From contig JAGWBM010000016.1 in assembly GCA_021295895.1 (NCBI GenBank), positions 1 through 32,682 of the forward strand: 32,682 bases of DNA, read 5' to 3'. Positions 2,598-10,403 of this stretch are shown piece by piece (position 1 is the stretch's first letter; each line of letters opens with the position of its first letter). Source of the DNA: Pseudomonadales bacterium. Its GTDB lineage: Bacteria; Pseudomonadota; Gammaproteobacteria; Pseudomonadales; Azotimanducaceae. The translations under genes were made by a program, and so were the position numbers. The notes under the pieces were generated by a model that saw only the letters and a program-made list of their open reading frames with translations, made no database searches and had not been told where the DNA came from.

Positions 2598-2728
2598 AGG
2601 CACGGCATTCGTCGGTTCTGCCGGTCATGGCCTTGCTGTGCGCGGGCACCCAGTCCTACGACCGACCCCAGGTCGTGCTGGTGATGGCGGACATCGGTTG
2701 GGCACAGACCGGCCACCTCGATCAGTAG
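2594..2728 (+). pseudogene. N-terminal remnant of an arylsulfatase-family gene
   Basis: After the metallophosphoesterase stop, a frame encodes a hydrophobic leader (ARHSSVLPVMALLCAG) then 'DRPQVVLVMADIGWAQTGHLDQ' and a stop at 2726-2728. This matches the conserved opening of sulfatases (RPN-[IV]-[VI]-L-[IV]-M-A-D-D-x-G-W-x-Q-T-G). One of the two metal-binding Asp codons is missing, and nothing of the remaining ~450 residues follows: the frame ends inside the convergent arfB gene. No standard start codon lies ahead of the leader; the aligned first codon is CTG at 2594, and an internal ATG is at 2627. I read it as a decayed, deleted sulfatase gene rather than a working peptide. Confidence 0.6.
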
Positions 2729-3141
2729 TCGTCCGGTGGCTTGCGCTGCCTCTTGGTCTCGCCGCGGCGCCGCTTGTCCGCGCGCCGTTTCTCCTTTTGC
2801 CTAGCCGAGATCCGCCTCGGAACGCGCGGTTTCGGCACCTCCCGCGCGGCCGCGATCAGGGCACCAAGGCGTTCGAGGGCGTCGGCCCGGTTCCGGGCCT
2901 GGGTCCGCTGGTTGTCCGCGACGATCAGAACTTCTCCGGCGTTCGTCAAACGACTGCCGGCGAGCCCCTCAAGGCGCTGCCGCACGGTCTGATCAAAACC
3001 AGCCGCGTCTAGGTGGAGTCGGCATTCGGCCGCCGTCGCGACCTTGTTCACGTTTTGTCCGCCCGGTCCCGAGGCACGAACGAAGTTCCACGACAGCGCC
3101 GCCTCGGGGATCGCCAAACCGCCGAGTTCGATCATTGCCAT
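2722..3141 (-). CDS. arfB: Peptidyl-tRNA hydrolase ArfB (ribosome rescue, YaeJ type)
   Basis: From ATG 3141 the product is 139 residues, as in E. coli ArfB (140). AGGGGG sits about 5 nt upstream, favouring this start over a longer frame reaching 3201. The catalytic GGQ lies at residues 27-29 in 'ASGPGGQNVNKV', the only domain of release factors that is kept. The C-terminal third is very rich in Lys and Arg (RRISARQKEKRRADKR...), the tail that threads into the empty mRNA channel of stalled ribosomes. The role is release of nascent chains from non-stop ribosomes. Its last 7 nt overlap the sulfatase remnant on the opposite strand. Confidence 0.92.
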   Translation of the reverse strand: MAMIELGGLAIPEAALSWNFVRASGPGGQNVNKVATAAECRLHLDAAGFDQTVRQRLEGLAGSRLTNAGEVLIVADNQRTQARNRADALERLGALIAAAREVPKPRVPRRISARQKEKRRADKRRRGETKRQRKPPDDY

Positions 3142-3245
3142 CACCGCCCCCTGACCAATCGGTCGACGACGGGTTGTCGGTGTTGCATCCGGTCGTTCCA
3201 TCGCTTACGTTGCCGCCGCAGCAGTATTGGACCCGATGGTGATGT

Positions 3246-4211
3246 ATGCGTCCAACCAGATGGACGATGTTGCCGAGTGCCCACCCAGTGATCCCTGTGG
3301 GGATTCTTACGGACAAGGCCTTTCGACCGCATTTGCACCGTTCCTTGGCGCTCTGCCTCGGCATTGCAGCCGCCGGTACGTCCTGGGTCCCCGCACTGGC
3401 CGAAACGACCGTCGACGTGCCGTTGATGCGGGCTGCGGGCCACCCCACCCAACAGGGGTTCGTCCGGGTCACTGCGGTGGAGTCCGGGACGATCGCGATC
3501 AAAGCCTGGAACGACGCAGGCGACGTCGAATCCACGTCCTTGTCCGTGGTGGGCGGCACCACCACCCACTTCAATTCCGATGACCTCGAGTTCGGCAACG
3601 CCGACAAGGGGATCCCTCGCCGCATTGGCTCGGGTTTCGGCGACTCCTATGTCCAACTTACCGCCGACTTCGATTTCGTCGCCACCTCCTATATGCGAAC
3701 CAACGACGGCTTCCTCACCGGGATGGGGAACATCCTCGTTCCCGTCGACGGTGAAGCGTTCGGTACCGCGTGTGTGTACGAAGCGACCATCTTCAATCCG
3801 GCCTCGAACACCAATCAGGTCAGCAGCCTGCGCATCGTCGAACGCGGGGGCTCGGATACGGCGGTCAGCATCTACGGTACCGATGACGATGGGGTTACGT
3901 ACGGCCCCGTGGGGCTCACCGTTGCCGCGAACGGCGCCCGCACGGTCACGTCCCAGCAATTGGAGAACGGCGATCCCGACCTAGACGAAATGCTCGCGGA
4001 TGGCACCGGCAAATGGCGACTCGCCGTCGCCACCGACGGGATGATCGTGGTCATGAACCTGCTGGAGTCACCCACCGGCCATCTCACCAACCTCGGTCCC
4101 GTGGTCCTATCGGCATTCAGCGATGGCGACGATCTCGAGACCCCGCAGGGATGCACGGGAGCACCGCCCCACCGCCTGGTCGCTCAACCGCCCGCAGCGG
4201 ACGTTCGCTAA
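3246..4211 (+). CDS. Exported protein with two copies of an unnamed beta-rich repeat
   Basis: The frame gives up to 321 residues. The start is uncertain: ATG 3246, ATG 3267 or GTG 3297 are all in frame and none has a good ribosome site; GTG 3297 would place the signal peptide (HRSLALCLGIAAAGTSWVPALA) near the N-terminus. Two related modules follow. The first has 'QQGFVRV...TTHFNSDDLEFGNADKGIPRRIGSGFGDSYVQLTADFDFVATSYMRTNDGFLTGM'. The second has 'NQVSSLRIVER...ARTVTSQQLENGD...GTGKWRLAVATDGMIVVMNLLESPTGHLTNL'. Each runs about 120 residues and looks like a beta-sandwich. The same module is familiar from exported gammaproteobacterial proteins, some of them proteases, but its function is unknown to me. 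Only 11 nt separate it from the next gene, so the two are probably co-transcribed with the protease beyond. Confidence 0.75.
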   Translation: MRPTRWTMLPSAHPVIPVGILTDKAFRPHLHRSLALCLGIAAAGTSWVPALAETTVDVPLMRAAGHPTQQGFVRVTAVESGTIAIKAWNDAGDVESTSLSVVGGTTTHFNSDDLEFGNADKGIPRRIGSGFGDSYVQLTADFDFVATSYMRTNDGFLTGMGNILVPVDGEAFGTACVYEATIFNPASNTNQVSSLRIVERGGSDTAVSIYGTDDDGVTYGPVGLTVAANGARTVTSQQLENGDPDLDEMLADGTGKWRLAVATDGMIVVMNLLESPTGHLTNLGPVVLSAFSDGDDLETPQGCTGAPPHRLVAQPPAADVR

Positions 4212-4222
4212 GGAGTTCTTGA

Positions 4223-4756
4223 ATGTCCTTCGAGAGATTACTTCCGGCTTTGACGCTAGTTCTGGCCGCCACGTGGGCGACTGGGCAGGAGCAGAGCACG
4301 GCGCCACGGACAGTCGATACCGCCCGGGGTCCGATGTTGGCACTGCCCCGGCTGGACTCGACGAGTCCCGCGTCGGTGGTCGTCGAAGACGTACGCATCG
4401 AGATGTCCGTGGAAGCGGGGTTCCGCGTATACCGTGCCCACCAGGACGGGCAGACCCGCACGGTCTACGAAGCGGCCGATGGTCCCGCCGGACGGTACGC
4501 CTACGACCCCGTAGAAAGACGATTCGATCGGGTGTCGTCCAGCCTGCGGGTACGGCTTACCGACTACGAGCGCCTGGACGACGTGGTTGCTTCGGCCGGG
4601 GCGTTGCGGGGCAAGAACTACAAGGCCCTCGGGTGGGCACTGCTGCGTCTACGACCCGAGCAAGACCCGGCGACTGTCGCCCGTTCGCTGCTGGAGAATC
4701 CGCTCGTCGTCGGCGCTGAAGTCATGCTTGAGGAGCCCATCCGTGTTCCACAGTAG
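4223..4756 (+). CDS. Exported stand-alone propeptide-like protein, candidate partner of the S8 protease
   Basis: This 177-residue protein starts at an ATG with AAGGAG 8 nt upstream. A signal peptide covers residues 1-21 (LLPALTLVLAATWATGQ). After a low-complexity linker there is a compact domain, 'FRVYRAHQDG...YDPVERRFDRVSSSLRVRLTDYERLDDVVASAGALRGKNYKALGWALLRLRPEQDPATVARSLLENPLVVGAEVMLEEPIRVPQ'. The last ~45 residues (beta-alpha-beta with 'P.VVGAEVMLEEP') resemble the end of I9-type subtilisin propeptides, which act as folding chaperone and inhibitor. The protease 57 nt downstream lacks that segment in front of its catalytic domain. Acting as a propeptide in trans is inference from order and pattern; no such activity can be read directly. 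Confidence 0.7.
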   Translation: MSFERLLPALTLVLAATWATGQEQSTAPRTVDTARGPMLALPRLDSTSPASVVVEDVRIEMSVEAGFRVYRAHQDGQTRTVYEAADGPAGRYAYDPVERRFDRVSSSLRVRLTDYERLDDVVASAGALRGKNYKALGWALLRLRPEQDPATVARSLLENPLVVGAEVMLEEPIRVPQ

Positions 4757-4813
4757 ACGAAGGGGTCTGACCGACGCGCTCGTTTGGACAAGTGACCCAG
4801 GGGATCGGCGAAG

Positions 4814-6892
4814 GTGATCACATCACTACTCTGTCTGTTTCTCGCCGTGGGTTGCGGCCCGGACGCCAAGCAGTCGATGGCTCCCGACATCCTCGTGTTC
4901 GCCGGCGACGCCCCGGTTCATGAGGAGGGCATCGAGCTTCCGGTCAGGATCCTCAACTGGGGCGCGGTACCGTCGACGGCTACCCCACTGCAGGTCTACA
5001 TCAACGATCGACCGAACTGGTCTGATTCGACCACGAGGACGCTCCTCGACACCGAGATCCCGCCGATCGATCCCAAGTCCTCCATTCGGTTCAACGTCGA
5101 CATCACCCTCGATGAATTCGAGCCCGACACCGACTACTACCTGCTGATGCGGGCCGACGGTCTCGACGGGGAACTCAACACGAGGAACTGGGACTATTGG
5201 GGCTTCTCCCTCGACGAGGAGGGGCGTGTCGTCATGCACTGCGACCTGGAGGCGCCGAACGACGGCCGGGACGGGGCAACCGACCCGCTGTTCGGGGAAC
5301 AGTGGCACCTCGAGAACACCGGCCAGCGAGCCTACGCGAGGACGCCCGCCTCGCCGGGCGAGGACCTCGGAATGACGAACGTCCTGTCGTCGGGAACGCC
5401 GACCGGCGCCGGCGTACGTATCGCTGTCGTCGACACGGGCATGGAGCTATGTCACCCCGACTTGGTCGCAAACGTCGAGCCCTTTGCTTCCCACAACTTC
5501 AATGCCAACGACTGGCACGGCGCCATTGTGGCCGAACCGTTCTTACCTTGGACTCTCGGCGACCACGGCACGTCCGTGGCGGGCACCGCGGCGGCCTCGG
5601 CAAACAACGGGACCGGGGGACGAGGCGTTGCCCCCGACGCGATCCTACGTAGTTACAACATGCTGGCGGCCGTTGAATCCGCCGGGACGTACTACGATTC
5701 CCTAGGCGGCAGCGACACCGACCCGGATTCGAGTGTGGTCGACATCTTCAACATGAGCTTCGGAACCCTGGGCGGGGAGTTCGCCGTCGACCGGGATGAA
5801 GACCGACTGCTCCGCCTGGGCGTCACCAATCTGCGCGGCGGGCGCGGCGCGCTCTACGTGAAGTCCGCGGGGAATGCCTTCAACGCCTGCGGAACCATGC
5901 GCCGTCCCGCCAACGCTCGCATCGGTTGTACCAGTTCCAACAGCGCTTCCTCGCATCACTCCCGATATCTGATCATCGTCGGTGCCTTCGACGCTCAAGG
6001 AACCCGCGCCAGCTACGCCTCCGCGGGCTCCAACCTGTGGGTCAGCGCCCCGGCCGGCGAATTCGGCTCACGATACGGTGCCACCATCACCGCAGACCAA
6101 GTGGGAACGAACCGGGGCTATGACGTACTCCGGAACTACGGCGTCGCCGAAGACGCCGTCAACAATCCCCACGGCAACTACGTGAGCACCTTCAACGGCA
6201 CGTCGGCCGCCGCCCCGAACACCAGTGGCGCCATCGCGCTGCTGCTGGAAGCCGCGCCCGAGCTGACGTGGCGCGACGTCAGGTACATACTCGCCAAGAC
6301 CGCCCGACAGATCGATGCCGACATCGAACCGGTGCAATACGTGGTCGGCGGCACGGTCTACGTCGCGCAACTGCCGTGGACCTCGAACGCCGCCGGCTAC
6401 CACTTCCACAATTGGTATGGATTCGGTGCGGTGGCCGTGGACGATGCCCTGGACCTGGTGGCCAGGCACACCCCGGACAGCCTTGGCGTATTCGTGGAGA
6501 CGGACCTGAACGCGTTCGCCCGGGAGGACATGGTTTCGATTCCGGACGACGACGGGACCGGTGTCGCCCAAACGCTTACCGTCGAGGGCCTCGCCGACAA
6601 CGCCAACATCGAAGCCGTGACCCTGCGCGTCAATATCACGCACCCGCAGACCAACGATCTCGCCATTCACCTCACGTCGCCTTCGGGAACCGAGAGCATC
6701 CTGAACCCCATCTTCAACGATGCCCTGGCGGGGAACGCGGATCTCGACTGGACACTCTTGAGCAACGCCTTCTACGGCGAGTCCCCGAACGGCGACTGGA
6801 CGATACGGGTCGTGGACGCCGCCTCGGAGGACGAGGGCACGCTCAACGGGTGGCGTCTCAGCTTCGCCCTGGGGACGCACCCGGCGTCCTGA
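4814..6892 (+). CDS. Subtilisin-family (S8) serine protease with C-terminal P/homoB domain, probable lipoprotein
   Basis: 692 residues from a GTG at 4814 with AGGGG upstream. The N-terminus (MITSLLCLFLAVGC) ends in a lipobox-like AVGC, so the protein may be lipid-anchored after export. Residues ~25-135 form a CARDB/Ig-like domain ('DILVFAGDAPVHEEGIELPVRILNWG'). The catalytic domain spans ~155-560, with Asp207 (VVDTGM), His251 (GDHGTSVAG), oxyanion Asn354 (SAGN) and Ser464 (FNGTSAAAP). A proprotein-convertase P-domain lies at ~568-690 and ends in 'LNGWRLSFALG'. All triad residues are present, so it should be active. It lacks a normal I9 propeptide; the preceding gene may supply one. Large inserts around the His motif and before Ser are Gly/Asn rich. 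Confidence 0.9.
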   Translation: MITSLLCLFLAVGCGPDAKQSMAPDILVFAGDAPVHEEGIELPVRILNWGAVPSTATPLQVYINDRPNWSDSTTRTLLDTEIPPIDPKSSIRFNVDITLDEFEPDTDYYLLMRADGLDGELNTRNWDYWGFSLDEEGRVVMHCDLEAPNDGRDGATDPLFGEQWHLENTGQRAYARTPASPGEDLGMTNVLSSGTPTGAGVRIAVVDTGMELCHPDLVANVEPFASHNFNANDWHGAIVAEPFLPWTLGDHGTSVAGTAAASANNGTGGRGVAPDAILRSYNMLAAVESAGTYYDSLGGSDTDPDSSVVDIFNMSFGTLGGEFAVDRDEDRLLRLGVTNLRGGRGALYVKSAGNAFNACGTMRRPANARIGCTSSNSASSHHSRYLIIVGAFDAQGTRASYASAGSNLWVSAPAGEFGSRYGATITADQVGTNRGYDVLRNYGVAEDAVNNPHGNYVSTFNGTSAAAPNTSGAIALLLEAAPELTWRDVRYILAKTARQIDADIEPVQYVVGGTVYVAQLPWTSNAAGYHFHNWYGFGAVAVDDALDLVARHTPDSLGVFVETDLNAFAREDMVSIPDDDGTGVAQTLTVEGLADNANIEAVTLRVNITHPQTNDLAIHLTSPSGTESILNPIFNDALAGNADLDWTLLSNAFYGESPNGDWTIRVVDAASEDEGTLNGWRLSFALGTHPAS

Positions 6893-6964
6893 TTGCCCGC
6901 CCGCCTACGGCGTGCCACCACCGCACTTTCCGGTTACGCTCACCCTTGTGTGAAGGGGTACGAC

Positions 6965-7720
6965 ATGCTTAGCGCCGAGGACATCGAGCACTACCACACC
7001 GACGGCTATGTCTCCCCCGACTTCCGGCTTGACGACGCCGTGCTCGACGACATCCGGGTCAATCACGACAGGCTGGTCGCCAAGCATCCGGCGTTCACCG
7101 ACTATTGTCCGGCCGTGCTCGCCTTCGACACCGGCTTCCTGAACATTGCCCGCATCCCCGCGATTCTCGACATGGTCGAGCAACTGATCGGTCCGGACCT
7201 CGCGTTGTGGAACTCAAGCTTCTTTGCCAAGCCGGCACGCGTCGGCACCAAGACGCCGTGGCATCAAGACGGCGAGTATTGGCCGATCCGGCCACTCGCG
7301 ACCTGCTCGGTCTGGATCGCCGTCGACGCGGCCACTACCGACAACGGCTGTCTGCGCGTGATCCCCGGATCGCACCGCCGTCGCACAATCGGCCGGCACG
7401 ACTTCAACGGCGCCGAGGGGCTGAGCCTGCCACTGGAACTCCGCGCCGACGAGTTCGACGAGACGACCGCCCGCGACATCGTGCTCGAAGCCGGGCAGGT
7501 CTCCCTGCACGACATCTTCCTGGTTCATGGCTCGGAGCCCAACCGCTCCGACACGCCCCGGCGCGGCATGACGCTGCGCTACATGCCGACATCGTCGGTC
7601 TACCGAAGAGACCTCGCCGACGGCCGGCGCGGCGGCCCGCTCGCCATGTCGGAGCGCACACTCTATCTCATGAGGGGGATCGACCGGTCAGGGCGGAACG
7701 ACTTCCGCCAGCGATTTTGA
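6965..7720 (+). CDS. Phytanoyl-CoA dioxygenase (PhyH) family 2-oxoglutarate/Fe(II) oxygenase
   Basis: 251 residues from ATG 6965, with AAGGGG about 7 nt upstream; the frame extends further 5' but that part has no family match. The N-terminus 'LSAEDIEHYHTDGYVSPDF' is the usual PhyH opening helix. Iron ligands are seen as His100-x-Asp102 (WHQDGEYW) and His188 (LVHGSEPN), with the 2-oxoglutarate-binding Arg in 'DTPRRGMTLRY' (199-200). 'GCLRVIPGSH' is the family core strand. These enzymes hydroxylate diverse small molecules; the substrate is not predictable here. The 3' end converges on the small lipoprotein gene with 6 nt between stop codons, and no terminator is obvious. Confidence 0.88.
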   Translation: MLSAEDIEHYHTDGYVSPDFRLDDAVLDDIRVNHDRLVAKHPAFTDYCPAVLAFDTGFLNIARIPAILDMVEQLIGPDLALWNSSFFAKPARVGTKTPWHQDGEYWPIRPLATCSVWIAVDAATTDNGCLRVIPGSHRRRTIGRHDFNGAEGLSLPLELRADEFDETTARDIVLEAGQVSLHDIFLVHGSEPNRSDTPRRGMTLRYMPTSSVYRRDLADGRRGGPLAMSERTLYLMRGIDRSGRNDFRQRF

Positions 7721-8054: not shown

Positions 8055-10403
8055 TCAGTCCACGGTGGTCTCGTAGCGAACGCCATCCGGCACCGGCACG
8101 GGCTGACGAACGGTTACCCCGTGCTCGCCGGCGGTCTTCTGGGACGAGTCCACCGCCACGAACGACGTGTAGTTCGACACCAACTGGTAGCGTAGCGCCG
8201 TGTTGCGAATGGCGTCGCCTAGCTCGCCATAGGGATCGCCCGCCCAGGTCAGGCGATTTGCCAAGTCGGCGATGCGTAGGCGGGCCCAGACCTTGGCGAG
8301 GGATGAGCCGGCGTTGCCTTGCTTGTTGTCCGCGGTCAGGAGGGTATGTCGTTCGCCGCCCGATGAACCGAGCACCCGAACCCTCTTCGAATCCCCGGTG
8401 AATTTGCCGGTGACCACCAGCGGCCGGCCCACGAACAGGTCCGGGAGCTTGGGCGGGTAGACCTCGGTCACCGCCATGCCGCCCCAATCGACCGCCACGT
8501 CGGTGAGCGCCGGACGGCTGACGCGGGCGAAGAAGTCGTCCATGACGTCCCGGGCCGAATCGTTCAGGCCGATATACGCGACCACGCCGCGCCCCGCATC
8601 CGCCATGCGCTCCATCAGGTAGCGATTGACCGAGTCGCCGACCCCGAAGCTGAAGACTCGCGATGCACCAATGCGGCTGTGCACCGCCCCGAGGATGTCA
8701 CTCTCATTGCCGATGTAGCCGTCGGTCATGAACGTGACGAAGCGGAACCGCGACGGGTCGTGGGGGAAATTCAACGCCGCATTGACGCCGTTGATCATCC
8801 GCGTCCCGCCGTCTGCCCGGAGCGCAGACACGTAATGGCGCGCCTTTGTCAGGTTTCGCTCGGTGGCCGGCACCGGCTTCGTCCCGAACTGGCTCGCCGC
8901 ATCCGAAAACCGGATGATCTGGAAGGTATCGTTGGGATCGAGCCGGTCCAACGCGACCATGACCGCGTCCTTGGCCTGCTGCAGGGGTTGTCCCTGCATT
9001 GAGCCCGAACAGTCGATGACGAAGACCATCTCCATGGCCTGGCGGGGAACCCGTGTCGAGTCCTTGGGCGGAATGACCATCAGCGTGAAGTAGCCATCCC
9101 CCGTTTCCGGATCCCGATGCGTCAACAGGTTTGACTTCAATCGTTCCCCGGCGACGCGGAAGTCGAGTACGAAGTCCCGGTTGGGGATGGTGGACTCGTT
9201 CTTGAGCTTGACCACCGCCGTGCGGTCGTCGTCGCGGGATACGTCGACGCCGTGGGACGCCTTGACCTCCTCGATCTCGACGCCGGCATCAAGGCGTACG
9301 TTGATGCTGATGTCGTGCCCGGAGCGCTCCTCGGGCCGCAGGTATTCCACCGCCGTACCGGCGGCGTTCGAGCCGCCGCCCCGCGGCACCGCATCGATGG
9401 GGTCGGGGTGTCCAGGGGGGTTGTAGCGGGGACCGACCACGGTGGGGAACACGAACGAATACCAGCCGTCCTCGTAGGCCAAGGTGTGGAAGTAGGTGAT
9501 GTCGATGTCGATGGCCTTGCCGGGCTCGATATTGGCAACTTTCTGTTCGAATATGTTGGGCCGGCGCTGCACTAGGAGGCTTGCGTGGTAGCCCTGCCGG
9601 CGTGCTTCCTTGTAGATGGCCTCCGCCTCTTCCTTCTCGCGCAAAATGCCCCGGATCGTGCGGTTGCCGATCACCATGAGGAACTCGTTGACGGCGGCTT
9701 TTTCCGGCAGCGGGAACACGTACACGGCCTCGATCTTGGCGTCGTAGGGGTTCTGGTACTCCTGCGTGACGTTGACCGTGCCTATGTAACCGCTGATCGC
9801 GGCCTCGACCGCAGTGTGCTTCAAGGGTAGCGGTATATACCGGACGCGATCCGGCTTGCCGGGGGAGGGAAAGCCCACCAACATCGCGCCGGATCCCGGC
9901 GCCTGTCGCATGTCCAGAATGACCCTGTCCGACTCCGGGCTAGACGGCGATGGTTGGGGGACCCGCGAAAACCTCATCAGGCGTCCTCCCGCGGCGGCCT
10001 CAGCATCCCTGAGACGGTCGACCAAGGCATCTACACCTACTTGGTACGTGCGATCGAAGATGACGACATCCGAGGCTTGGGTATTGAACTCGGCGGGTAG
10101 GTCGTCGAAGCTATCCCGCCGGACGCTCGACACGATGACTTTCTCGACCTCCTCCGCCGCGGCCTCGGGAGGCGGCTTCGCGATGATCCAGAGTTCCGGC
10201 TCGGCAGTCGGCGACGAAGCCGCAGTCTTCGGTCTCGGCAGTGGCGGTGCCGCTGGCGGCAGTGGCGCGGTCGCTTCCGGCGCGGGCTCGGGCACCGAAA
10301 CCGTTTCCGTCACGCTGCACGAGACGACCGCGACGGGCACCGCGAATACTAGACCCGTGGCCAGGACACCGAGGGCGACAGTGAAGAGGGGGCGTTTCAT
10401 CAT
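8055..10403 (-). CDS. VIT and von Willebrand factor A domain protein, exported, probable lipoprotein
   Basis: 782 residues. The start ATG overlaps the stop of the cohesin-like gene (ATGA), indicating translational coupling. The N-terminus is a signal segment ending in VVSC (Cys29), a possible lipobox, followed by a Pro/Ala-rich linker (~35-65). A VIT domain spans ~190-325 (IPLPLKHTAVEAAISGYIGTVNVTQEYQNP...). The VWA domain spans ~457-625, with a complete MIDAS: Asp464-Cys-Ser466-Gly-Ser468, Thr534 and Asp561 (MTDGY). A C-terminal beta/helical region follows to 'RYQLVSNYTSFVAVD', as in inter-alpha-trypsin-inhibitor-like bacterial proteins. Such VIT/VWA proteins bind ligands through a divalent cation at the cell surface. 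The extra ~100 residues at 65-180 are not recognised. Confidence 0.9.
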   Translation of the reverse strand: MMKRPLFTVALGVLATGLVFAVPVAVVSCSVTETVSVPEPAPEATAPLPPAAPPLPRPKTAASSPTAEPELWIIAKPPPEAAAEEVEKVIVSSVRRDSFDDLPAEFNTQASDVVIFDRTYQVGVDALVDRLRDAEAAAGGRLMRFSRVPQPSPSSPESDRVILDMRQAPGSGAMLVGFPSPGKPDRVRYIPLPLKHTAVEAAISGYIGTVNVTQEYQNPYDAKIEAVYVFPLPEKAAVNEFLMVIGNRTIRGILREKEEAEAIYKEARRQGYHASLLVQRRPNIFEQKVANIEPGKAIDIDITYFHTLAYEDGWYSFVFPTVVGPRYNPPGHPDPIDAVPRGGGSNAAGTAVEYLRPEERSGHDISINVRLDAGVEIEEVKASHGVDVSRDDDRTAVVKLKNESTIPNRDFVLDFRVAGERLKSNLLTHRDPETGDGYFTLMVIPPKDSTRVPRQAMEMVFVIDCSGSMQGQPLQQAKDAVMVALDRLDPNDTFQIIRFSDAASQFGTKPVPATERNLTKARHYVSALRADGGTRMINGVNAALNFPHDPSRFRFVTFMTDGYIGNESDILGAVHSRIGASRVFSFGVGDSVNRYLMERMADAGRGVVAYIGLNDSARDVMDDFFARVSRPALTDVAVDWGGMAVTEVYPPKLPDLFVGRPLVVTGKFTGDSKRVRVLGSSGGERHTLLTADNKQGNAGSSLAKVWARLRIADLANRLTWAGDPYGELGDAIRNTALRYQLVSNYTSFVAVDSSQKTAGEHGVTVRQPVPVPDGVRYETTVD

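Follow-up and report, generated by a model that had tools for sequence, protein, structure and literature searches.

A subtilase propeptide probably supplied in trans by an upstream gene, related to the ASP-ORF2 system

Introduction

The propeptide of a subtilase serves as a folding helper and as a safety catch, and normally lies within the protease chain. The ASP protease of Aeromonas sobria, an S8B enzyme without a propeptide, needs a separate chaperone/inhibitor called ORF2, as described in the available portion of PMC5638518. The same portion lists homologous ASP-ORF2 operons in Vibrio, Shewanella, Chromobacterium and Pseudoalteromonas, five genera in all, and gives the C-terminal tail of ORF2 as Gln-Pro-Lys. 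Structures of the system are found in PDB entries 3hjr, 3wqb and 2mk4. In the accessible text of a survey (PMC9549277), ASP is counted as one of two subtilases without a propeptide. Propeptide-like inhibitors that stand alone are also known, and the excerpted parts of PMC6993865 name Plasmodium SUB1-ProM, TgMIC5 and fungal and plant I9 proteins.

The contig stretch analysed here (32,682 nucleotides, the window) encodes a 177-aa protein that is very probably a subtilase propeptide supplied in trans, in an upstream-gene version of the ASP-ORF2 arrangement.

Organization of the locus

Three consecutive ORFs on the + strand encode proteins of 321, 177 and 692 aa, the last one with a GTG start (Table 1). 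A first-pass annotation of the window had placed the gene of an exported 177-aa protein directly before an S8 protease lacking a propeptide, and this is the arrangement found.

Table 1. Features of the propeptide-protease locus (positions in the window).
Feature	Position	Strand	Basis or remark
Exported protein with two ~110-aa repeats	3246..4211	+	ORF; start codon uncertain
AAGGAG, likely ribosome-binding site of the 177-aa ORF	4210..4215	+	starts 13 bases ahead of the ATG
Propeptide-like protein of 177 aa with its own gene and a likely export signal	4223..4756	+	60-member family; mean model pLDDT 84.1; signal judged by eye
Propeptide-fold domain, residues 100-169, b-a-b-b-a-b	4520..4729	+	predicted secondary structure; PC1/3 prodomain, ORF2 and prosubtilisin matched by VIA-align
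Free C-terminal tail V-P-Q of the 177-aa protein	4745..4753	+	Pro counts in the family; would dock in the protease cleft
S8 protease of the kexin type with likely lipoprotein signal (C14) and CARDB-like, catalytic and P domains	4814..6892	+	
S8 catalytic domain, residues 198-537; D207, H251, N354, S464	5405..6424	+	
P domain, residues 599-684	6608..6865	+	PF01483 E 1.1e-22

The protease contains a Peptidase_S8 domain (E 7.9e-38) followed by a P domain. N-terminal to both, CARDB was weakly matched (E 0.055), and the signal leads directly into this CARDB-like domain. When the protease was scanned for propeptide families at E<=1, none was found. Its residues D207, H251, N354 and S464, which we take to be the key residues of the catalytic domain, lie in motifs that align with ASP. 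The best solved relatives are the ASP entries 3hjr (E 1.2e-67) and 3wqb (E 3.2e-67), and the homology spans residues 156-671, most of the P domain included.

By eye, the signal peptide of the 321-aa protein would end near ...VPALA, before ETT, and no Pfam family was identified (best E 0.35). The two repeats reported for it by the first-pass annotation align at a score of 52, where 200 shuffles average 30.3 and one of them also reached 52. This protein alone thus gives moderate support to the putative repeat, and offset matches in paralogues lend it further weight. The repeat module occurs at 13 further places in the same genome, the 321-aa protein being a stand-alone copy. A homologue lies directly upstream in 11 related loci besides the window (six split, five fused). 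Ten of these fall, together with the window, in one group of 15 rows of the tree, the others of which are without it; the remaining locus, L128, is off the tree. As it is directly upstream in only these 11 loci, the 321-aa protein was rejected as a fixed third part in general, and is a clade-limited companion of the pair.

Conservation of all three adjacent genes in the six split loci is what would be expected if their three products formed one stable complex, like the multi-subunit surface protease dentilisin. The protease weakly matches dentilisin PrtP (NCBIfam NF033595), the one dentilisin subunit compared, at 45.3 bits; however, this is far below the cut-off of 300, and the repeat protein is not beside the rest of the pairs and fusions. 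Such a complex is considered very unlikely.

Sequence and predicted fold of the 177-aa protein

The C-terminal domain had been read as I9-type. Its sequence is not that of an I9 domain: the family model PF05922 gave no match to the 177-aa protein at E<=1 and none in its own genome at E<=0.001. Fervidolysin-type prodomains and ORF2 are closer to it. Residues 111-166 weakly match PF22148 (Fervidolysin_NPro-like; E 0.13, 13.1 bits, under the curated cut-off of 21), and 13 of 29 small-family members match this family at E<=0.01, an E-value criterion rather than the curated cut-off, the best at 2.3e-6.

What agrees with the I9 reading is the predicted fold. In the predicted structure, the ten-residue blocks of residues 91-170 have a pLDDT of 93-97, and the topology of the domain is that of subtilase propeptides. 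An unrelated fold was looked for, and the predicted one is the propeptide fold. VIA-align superposed the model on the PC1/3 prodomain (Z 9.2, 9.1 and 8.9), on ORF2 (3wqb_B; Z 8.0 over 97 residues, model residues 27-177) and on prosubtilisin 3cnq_P (Z 7.3). Foldseek returned nothing for the model at E<=0.001, and the small-family profiles retrieved none of the solved structures at E<=1 or E<=10. The ferredoxin-like fold is common, and a DNA polymerase scored Z 8.2 against the model in VIA-align, above the value of ORF2.

Profile comparison with hhalign aligned the small family with ORF2-like proteins at a probability of 95.8 (E 6.5e-9), reaching the last residue of both; among 100 column shuffles the probability was at most 0.6. 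The ORF2-like profile retrieves ORF2 itself (E 3.9e-11). The Pfam family ORF_2_N (PF18492) was matched by all 11 ORF2-like proteins at E<=1 (best 2e-34), and by none of the 29 small-family members at E<=0.01. It gave no match in the own genome, and the same search exceeded the cut-off in three genomes with ORF2-like genes.

With such a common fold, the small protein might resemble propeptides by chance and be a substrate or structural partner of the protease. This is extremely unlikely, given the ORF2 profile link that no shuffle approached, the PF22148 matches across the family, and the fusions in which the domain takes the N-terminal position.

Homology stops at the stop codon, at the same family-model position, in 46 of the 47 separate small proteins. 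Of these 47 members with their own stop, 36 have Pro and 9 have Trp as the penultimate residue, against a Pro background of 6.3%. It is proposed that the V-P-Q tail of the 177-aa protein would occupy the active-site cleft of the protease.

Conservation of the pair

The small family has 60 members, 58 of them placeable. The gene adjoins a protease gene, upstream and on the same strand, in 35 of the 58; it is fused to it in 12 and unlinked in 11. By this survey the pair is conserved. In 34 of the 35 adjacent pairs, the protease frame opens at most 100 bases from the end of the small gene or overlaps it. The surrounding stretch holds no S8 gene for 13 of the 60 members (two of these at contig ends). 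Where the small gene is unlinked (11 genomes), the protease is in every case present elsewhere in the genome. In the fused chains the small domain is N-terminal to the protease, and a linker and CARDB-like domain separate it from the catalytic domain, unlike in a classical propeptide. A structure model of a fused chain reached a mean pLDDT of 54.3, with mostly 20-40 in the catalytic domain.

Across 200 genomes, counting strong small-family matches and proteases at E<=1e-60, both were present in 43, the small gene alone in none, the protease alone in 5 and neither in 152 (Fisher p 1.5e-38, a nominal value as these genomes are related). All five protease-only genomes carry an ORF2-like gene downstream. 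Weak small matches in G783, G888 (twice) and G928 (L141-L144; E 6e-4 to 0.008) failed the family model and were dropped; at a loose threshold of E<=0.01, G783 and G928 would count as having a weak small match without a protease at E<=1e-60. Three genomes (G624, G697 and G882) each combine a single propeptide gene with two protease matches at E<=1e-60. A class-wide search of 369 genomes with the 177-aa protein gave five matching genomes besides its own; the three matches inspected (L005-L007) were set aside as chance, their ORFs resembling peptide-binding transport proteins. Viral contigs offered 15 candidate stretches, none of them positive.

The 177-aa protein could also be an inhibitor only, blocking the protease in trans and dispensable for folding, as proposed for eukaryotic mimics. 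The product-like tail and the known stand-alone inhibitors, as far as the excerpts of PMC6993865 go, are in line with this. However, the protease has no other propeptide, a strong small-family match never occurs without it in the 200 genomes, and 12 natural fusions put the small domain at the N-terminal, propeptide-like position; inhibition alone is therefore judged unlikely. The fused homologues might further suggest that one gene was broken here by mutation or assembly error. This was rejected as scarcely credible because separate forms are conserved: there are 35 separate pairs, the small proteins end at one family-model place, and nearly all split proteases have signals of their own, as described below.

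Putative lipid anchor of the protease

The putative lipoprotein signal of the protease, MITSLLCLFLAVG followed by C, is short and without a basic residue. Six close relatives (L092, L094, L095, L097, L099 and L113) share it, and the sequence of the signal suggests that the protease is probably lipid-anchored at its N-terminus. A lipobox is present in 29 of the 35 split proteases, 27 by pattern and two (L091 and L113) added by eye. Of 36 split rows, 27 fitted the pattern; one row, the second frame of L138, proved to be another S8 gene, so that 35 remain; a stricter pattern, which missed the window protease and others, was replaced. Five split proteases of one clade (L051, L106, L107, L112 and L125) have an ordinary-looking signal by eye instead of a lipobox, and L129 is truncated. 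Among the fused chains (n=11, L128 being too short), the pattern called only L122, which was read as an ordinary signal (AYA/QA) and scored as none. On the tree, which omits L128, L129, L060 and the second L138 frame, lipid anchoring and the split form can be compared independently only twice (sign test, median p 0.5). The link between lipid anchoring and a separate propeptide is thus suggestive only.

Proposed role of the separate propeptide

In the marine source bacterium, the folding helper and inhibitor of the protease probably comes from its own upstream gene. Gene anatomy, predicted fold, pair conservation, natural fusions and ORF2 profile homology carry this explanation, and they support, as a reading, the trans-acting chaperone/inhibitor of the first-pass annotation; by homology, it may act on the adjacent protease. 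For binding, folding, inhibition, release, lipidation and the role of the anchor, we would infer the following. The 177-aa protein would be exported separately from the protease. Its b-a-b-b-a-b domain would bind the catalytic domain while this is unfolded or has just folded, and aid its folding. The free tail would lie product-like in the substrate cleft, keeping the protease inactive up to release of the tail or destruction of the propeptide. Supply in trans may be explained by the probable N-terminal lipid anchor, because cleavage of a cis propeptide at this end would remove the anchor as well.

It is possible, though rather doubtful, that among members of a single bacterial family the propeptide repeatedly changes between three states, fused in cis, adjacent in trans and fully unlinked in trans, with lipid anchoring selecting for trans. 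One unlinked gene would then serve two proteases in the three genomes with a double protease match, so activation of the surface protease could be controlled from elsewhere.

With fused, adjacent and unlinked versions, close relatives supply natural intermediates for asking by what route a foldase separates from its enzyme, and whether a covalent link is needed for folding and inhibition. Lipid anchoring offers a testable reason for the split.

Comparison with known systems

The propeptide mimics of MEROPS I9 and SUB1-ProM resemble the 177-aa protein in presenting a propeptide fold as a separate gene product, and SUB1-ProM also lies beside subtilase genes, according to the excerpts of PMC6993865. 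The same excerpts give Plasmodium SUB1 its own propeptide, whereas the protease described here has none, and in contrast to the I9 mimics the 177-aa protein has no I9 sequence match. The fervidolysin-type N-terminal prodomain (PF22148) is shared through the family matches and the N-terminal position in fused forms; it differs in that the 177-aa protein stays under the cut-off and has a separate gene.

The trans-acting propeptide is of an already known kind, that of ASP-ORF2. Both systems have an ASP-type, kexin-type S8 protease with a P domain and without its own propeptide, and a separate partner gene adjoining the protease gene, the export signal here being judged by eye. The partners are predicted to be alike in fold over the aligned residues and appear homologous by profile, and a penultimate Pro is common to V-P-Q and to the ORF2 tail given in the available portion of PMC5638518. 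The partner gene is upstream here, whereas 11 of the 12 further ASP-like loci retrieved have it downstream; the small family lacks the ORF_2_N match, its relatives include fused and unlinked versions, and the protease carries a CARDB-like domain and is likely to be lipid-anchored. The small family thus extends a known, little-described arrangement, the new elements being the upstream gene, the fused and unlinked versions, and the bridge from ORF2 to ordinary propeptides.

Locus organization

Three consecutive open reading frames on the same strand encode a repeat protein made of two ~110-aa repeats, a small propeptide-like protein and a kexin-type S8 protease. The protease, one of three S8 places in its own genome, contains both a Peptidase_S8 and a P domain, and its catalytic motifs are intact. 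All that precedes the catalytic domain is a short lipoprotein-like signal followed by a CARDB-like domain (a weak match). Only in the five closest loci does the pair have close homologues of the PhyH dioxygenase gene (directly 3' of the protease) and of the RF-1-domain gene (5' of the operon) nearby; the VIT and von Willebrand factor A protein is also found near the pair in these loci.

Features of the protease locus and places of the repeat module (G000, own genome; C-numbers, contigs)
Feature	Position	Strand	Type
RF-1-domain protein	2722-3201	-	gene
Repeat protein, 321 aa, likely export signal	3246-4211	+	ORF
Small protein, 177 aa, likely export signal	4223-4756	+	ORF
Protease, 692 aa	4814-6892	+	ORF
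PhyH dioxygenase	6893-7720	+	gene
VIT and von Willebrand factor A protein	8055-10403	-	
Repeat module places	3246-4211; G000 contigs C9, C50, C79, C98, C101, C102, C137, C157		

In 11 further loci the gene immediately 5' of the pair or fusion encodes a homologue of the repeat protein, and in three more a homologue forms part of larger nearby proteins. The module occurs at 13 other places in the genome (14 with the window copy, which matches no Pfam family). Ten of these 13 belong to five large proteins; among the additional domains there are a leucine-rich-repeat metalloprotease, a carbohydrate-binding module (CBM60), and cytochrome c-like, beta-lactamase-like and NHL domains.

Conservation and co-occurrence with the protease

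Used alone as the query against 390 genomes of the order, the sequence of the small protein matched in six, its own included, all of the same bacterial family. With a profile, 46 of 200 genomes of that family matched at E≤0.01, 43 of them strongly (E<1e-20). Every matching place was fetched, and 60 loci, including the window, carry a member: 35 as a separate gene that precedes the protease and shares its strand, 12 fused with it in one frame, and 13 in a stretch without S8. In 34 of the 35 separate pairs, the protease frame opens at most 100 bases after the small-gene stop or overlaps it; at L129, a contig-end locus, it starts 663 bases beyond the small gene. Two of the 13 (L100 and L139) run to the contig end and are not judgeable; the remaining 11 were counted as unlinked. 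A protease is encoded elsewhere in the genome in all 11 of these cases and in genome G805 (12/12, E≤1e-10). Fourteen stretches around such unlinked proteases (L053, L054, L056, L057, L182-L191) gave neither a small-family match at E<0.01 nor an ORF2-like match at E≤1. In six loci of one genus (L098, L104, L109, L110, L111, L120), the unlinked propeptide gene adjoins conserved genes whose products resemble NfuA and methionine synthase. Three genomes (G624, G697, G882) each have two ASP-type protease matches (E≤1e-60) and a single propeptide gene.

The 200 genomes were taken as one draw, as the handles listed by the small-family and protease searches coincide. Counting proteases at E≤1e-60 and strong small-family matches, with three weak ones left out, the protease is present in 48 genomes and the small family in 43: both in 43, small only in none, protease only in five and neither in 152 (Fisher p 1.5e-38, nominal because the genomes are related). 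All five protease-only genomes have an ORF2-like gene directly downstream of the protease, four by profile (E 2e-4 to 1e-9); the fifth, at L192, was missed by the profile and is 74% identical to one of the other four. The Pfam family ORF_2_N at E≤0.01 matches three of the five, under its cut-off (the match of G903 sits on a different contig from L192), and none of eight small-family genomes tested. Such sub-cut-off matches are poor evidence alone, since two control genomes match likewise at E≤0.01.

Relation to the ASP-ORF2 system

The closest solved relative of the protease is Aeromonas sobria ASP. A further 12 ASP-like loci were retrieved from the order. In 11 of them the protease gene is immediately followed by a small gene whose product has a likely signal; L168 is the exception. 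This relative (G738:C99) has a frame of more than 2000 aa, no ORF2-like gene was found there, and its N-terminal stretch, judged by eye, resembles a cis propeptide. The small-family profile directly matches three of the 11 downstream proteins (E 4e-6 to 5e-4), the rest weakly or not at all. A profile built from these 11 retrieves ORF2 itself, and ORF_2_N matches all 11 at E≤1. Profile comparison of the window family with the 11 ORF2-like proteins gave an 88-column alignment that extends to the C-terminal residue of each (prob 95.8, E 6.5e-9); column-shuffled controls reached a prob of at most 0.6. Among 47 separate small-family members, 36 have Pro and nine have Trp at the penultimate position, where 5/11 ORF2-like proteins have Pro. 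PMC5638518 reports that ASP maturation needs ORF2, that ORF2 inhibits ASP (IC50 84.3 nM) and that its C-terminal Gln-Pro-Lys is placed at the ASP active site.

AlphaFold was run on the 177-aa protein together with 12 relatives as alignment. The model (pLDDT 84.1) has a b-a-b-b-a-b arrangement at residues 100-169. With this predicted model as query, the top VIA-align scores among the re-aligned chains belong to the PC1/3 prodomain (Z 9.2, 9.1, 8.9). A. sobria ORF2 ranks sixth at Z 8.0 (97 residues aligned within model 27-177, rmsd 3.8), with the longest alignment among 50 VIA-align rows, and prosubtilisin reaches Z 7.3. Unrelated polymerases score up to Z 8.2, and therefore the fold alone is not decisive. 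Foldseek gave no match at E≤0.001.

Evolution of split and fused forms

In a midpoint-rooted tree of 60 proteases, a fully supported branch separates the ORF2-downstream proteases from the window's family, within which split and fused forms are intermixed. At least two changes of the fused state are forced by strong branches, and four occur on the best tree. A single fused clade was rejected (p-AU 4e-12). With the ORF2-type as outgroup, the separate form is likelier to be ancestral and fusion secondary, a reading limited by the midpoint root and by some uncertain long branches. When three fused chains and 10 split pairs are aligned, the split small protein ends where the fused chain enters its linker, and the own signal of the shorter, window-like proteases stands in the linker's position. 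In the fused chains too, a CARDB-like domain separates the propeptide from the catalytic domain.

By pattern and hand corrections, a lipobox is present in 29 of 35 split proteases, while among 11 fused chains the count is zero or one. Removal of a cis propeptide would take an N-terminal lipid anchor with it, which supply in trans would avoid. Lipid anchoring is an attractive but no more than suggestive reason for a trans propeptide: the link has two independent comparisons behind it, a whole clade forms an exception, and the signal of the window's protease has no basic residue.

We infer that the 177-aa protein is a propeptide of the ASP-ORF2 kind, acting in trans. The literature located, which is no proof of absence, describes no ASP-type protease with its propeptide gene upstream, no fused versions of the two and no proteases of this bacterial family. 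New to this kind of propeptide are the gene order and the natural fused and unlinked forms: in ASP-ORF2 the partner gene lies downstream, whereas in the window family the propeptide gene is upstream, fused or unlinked.
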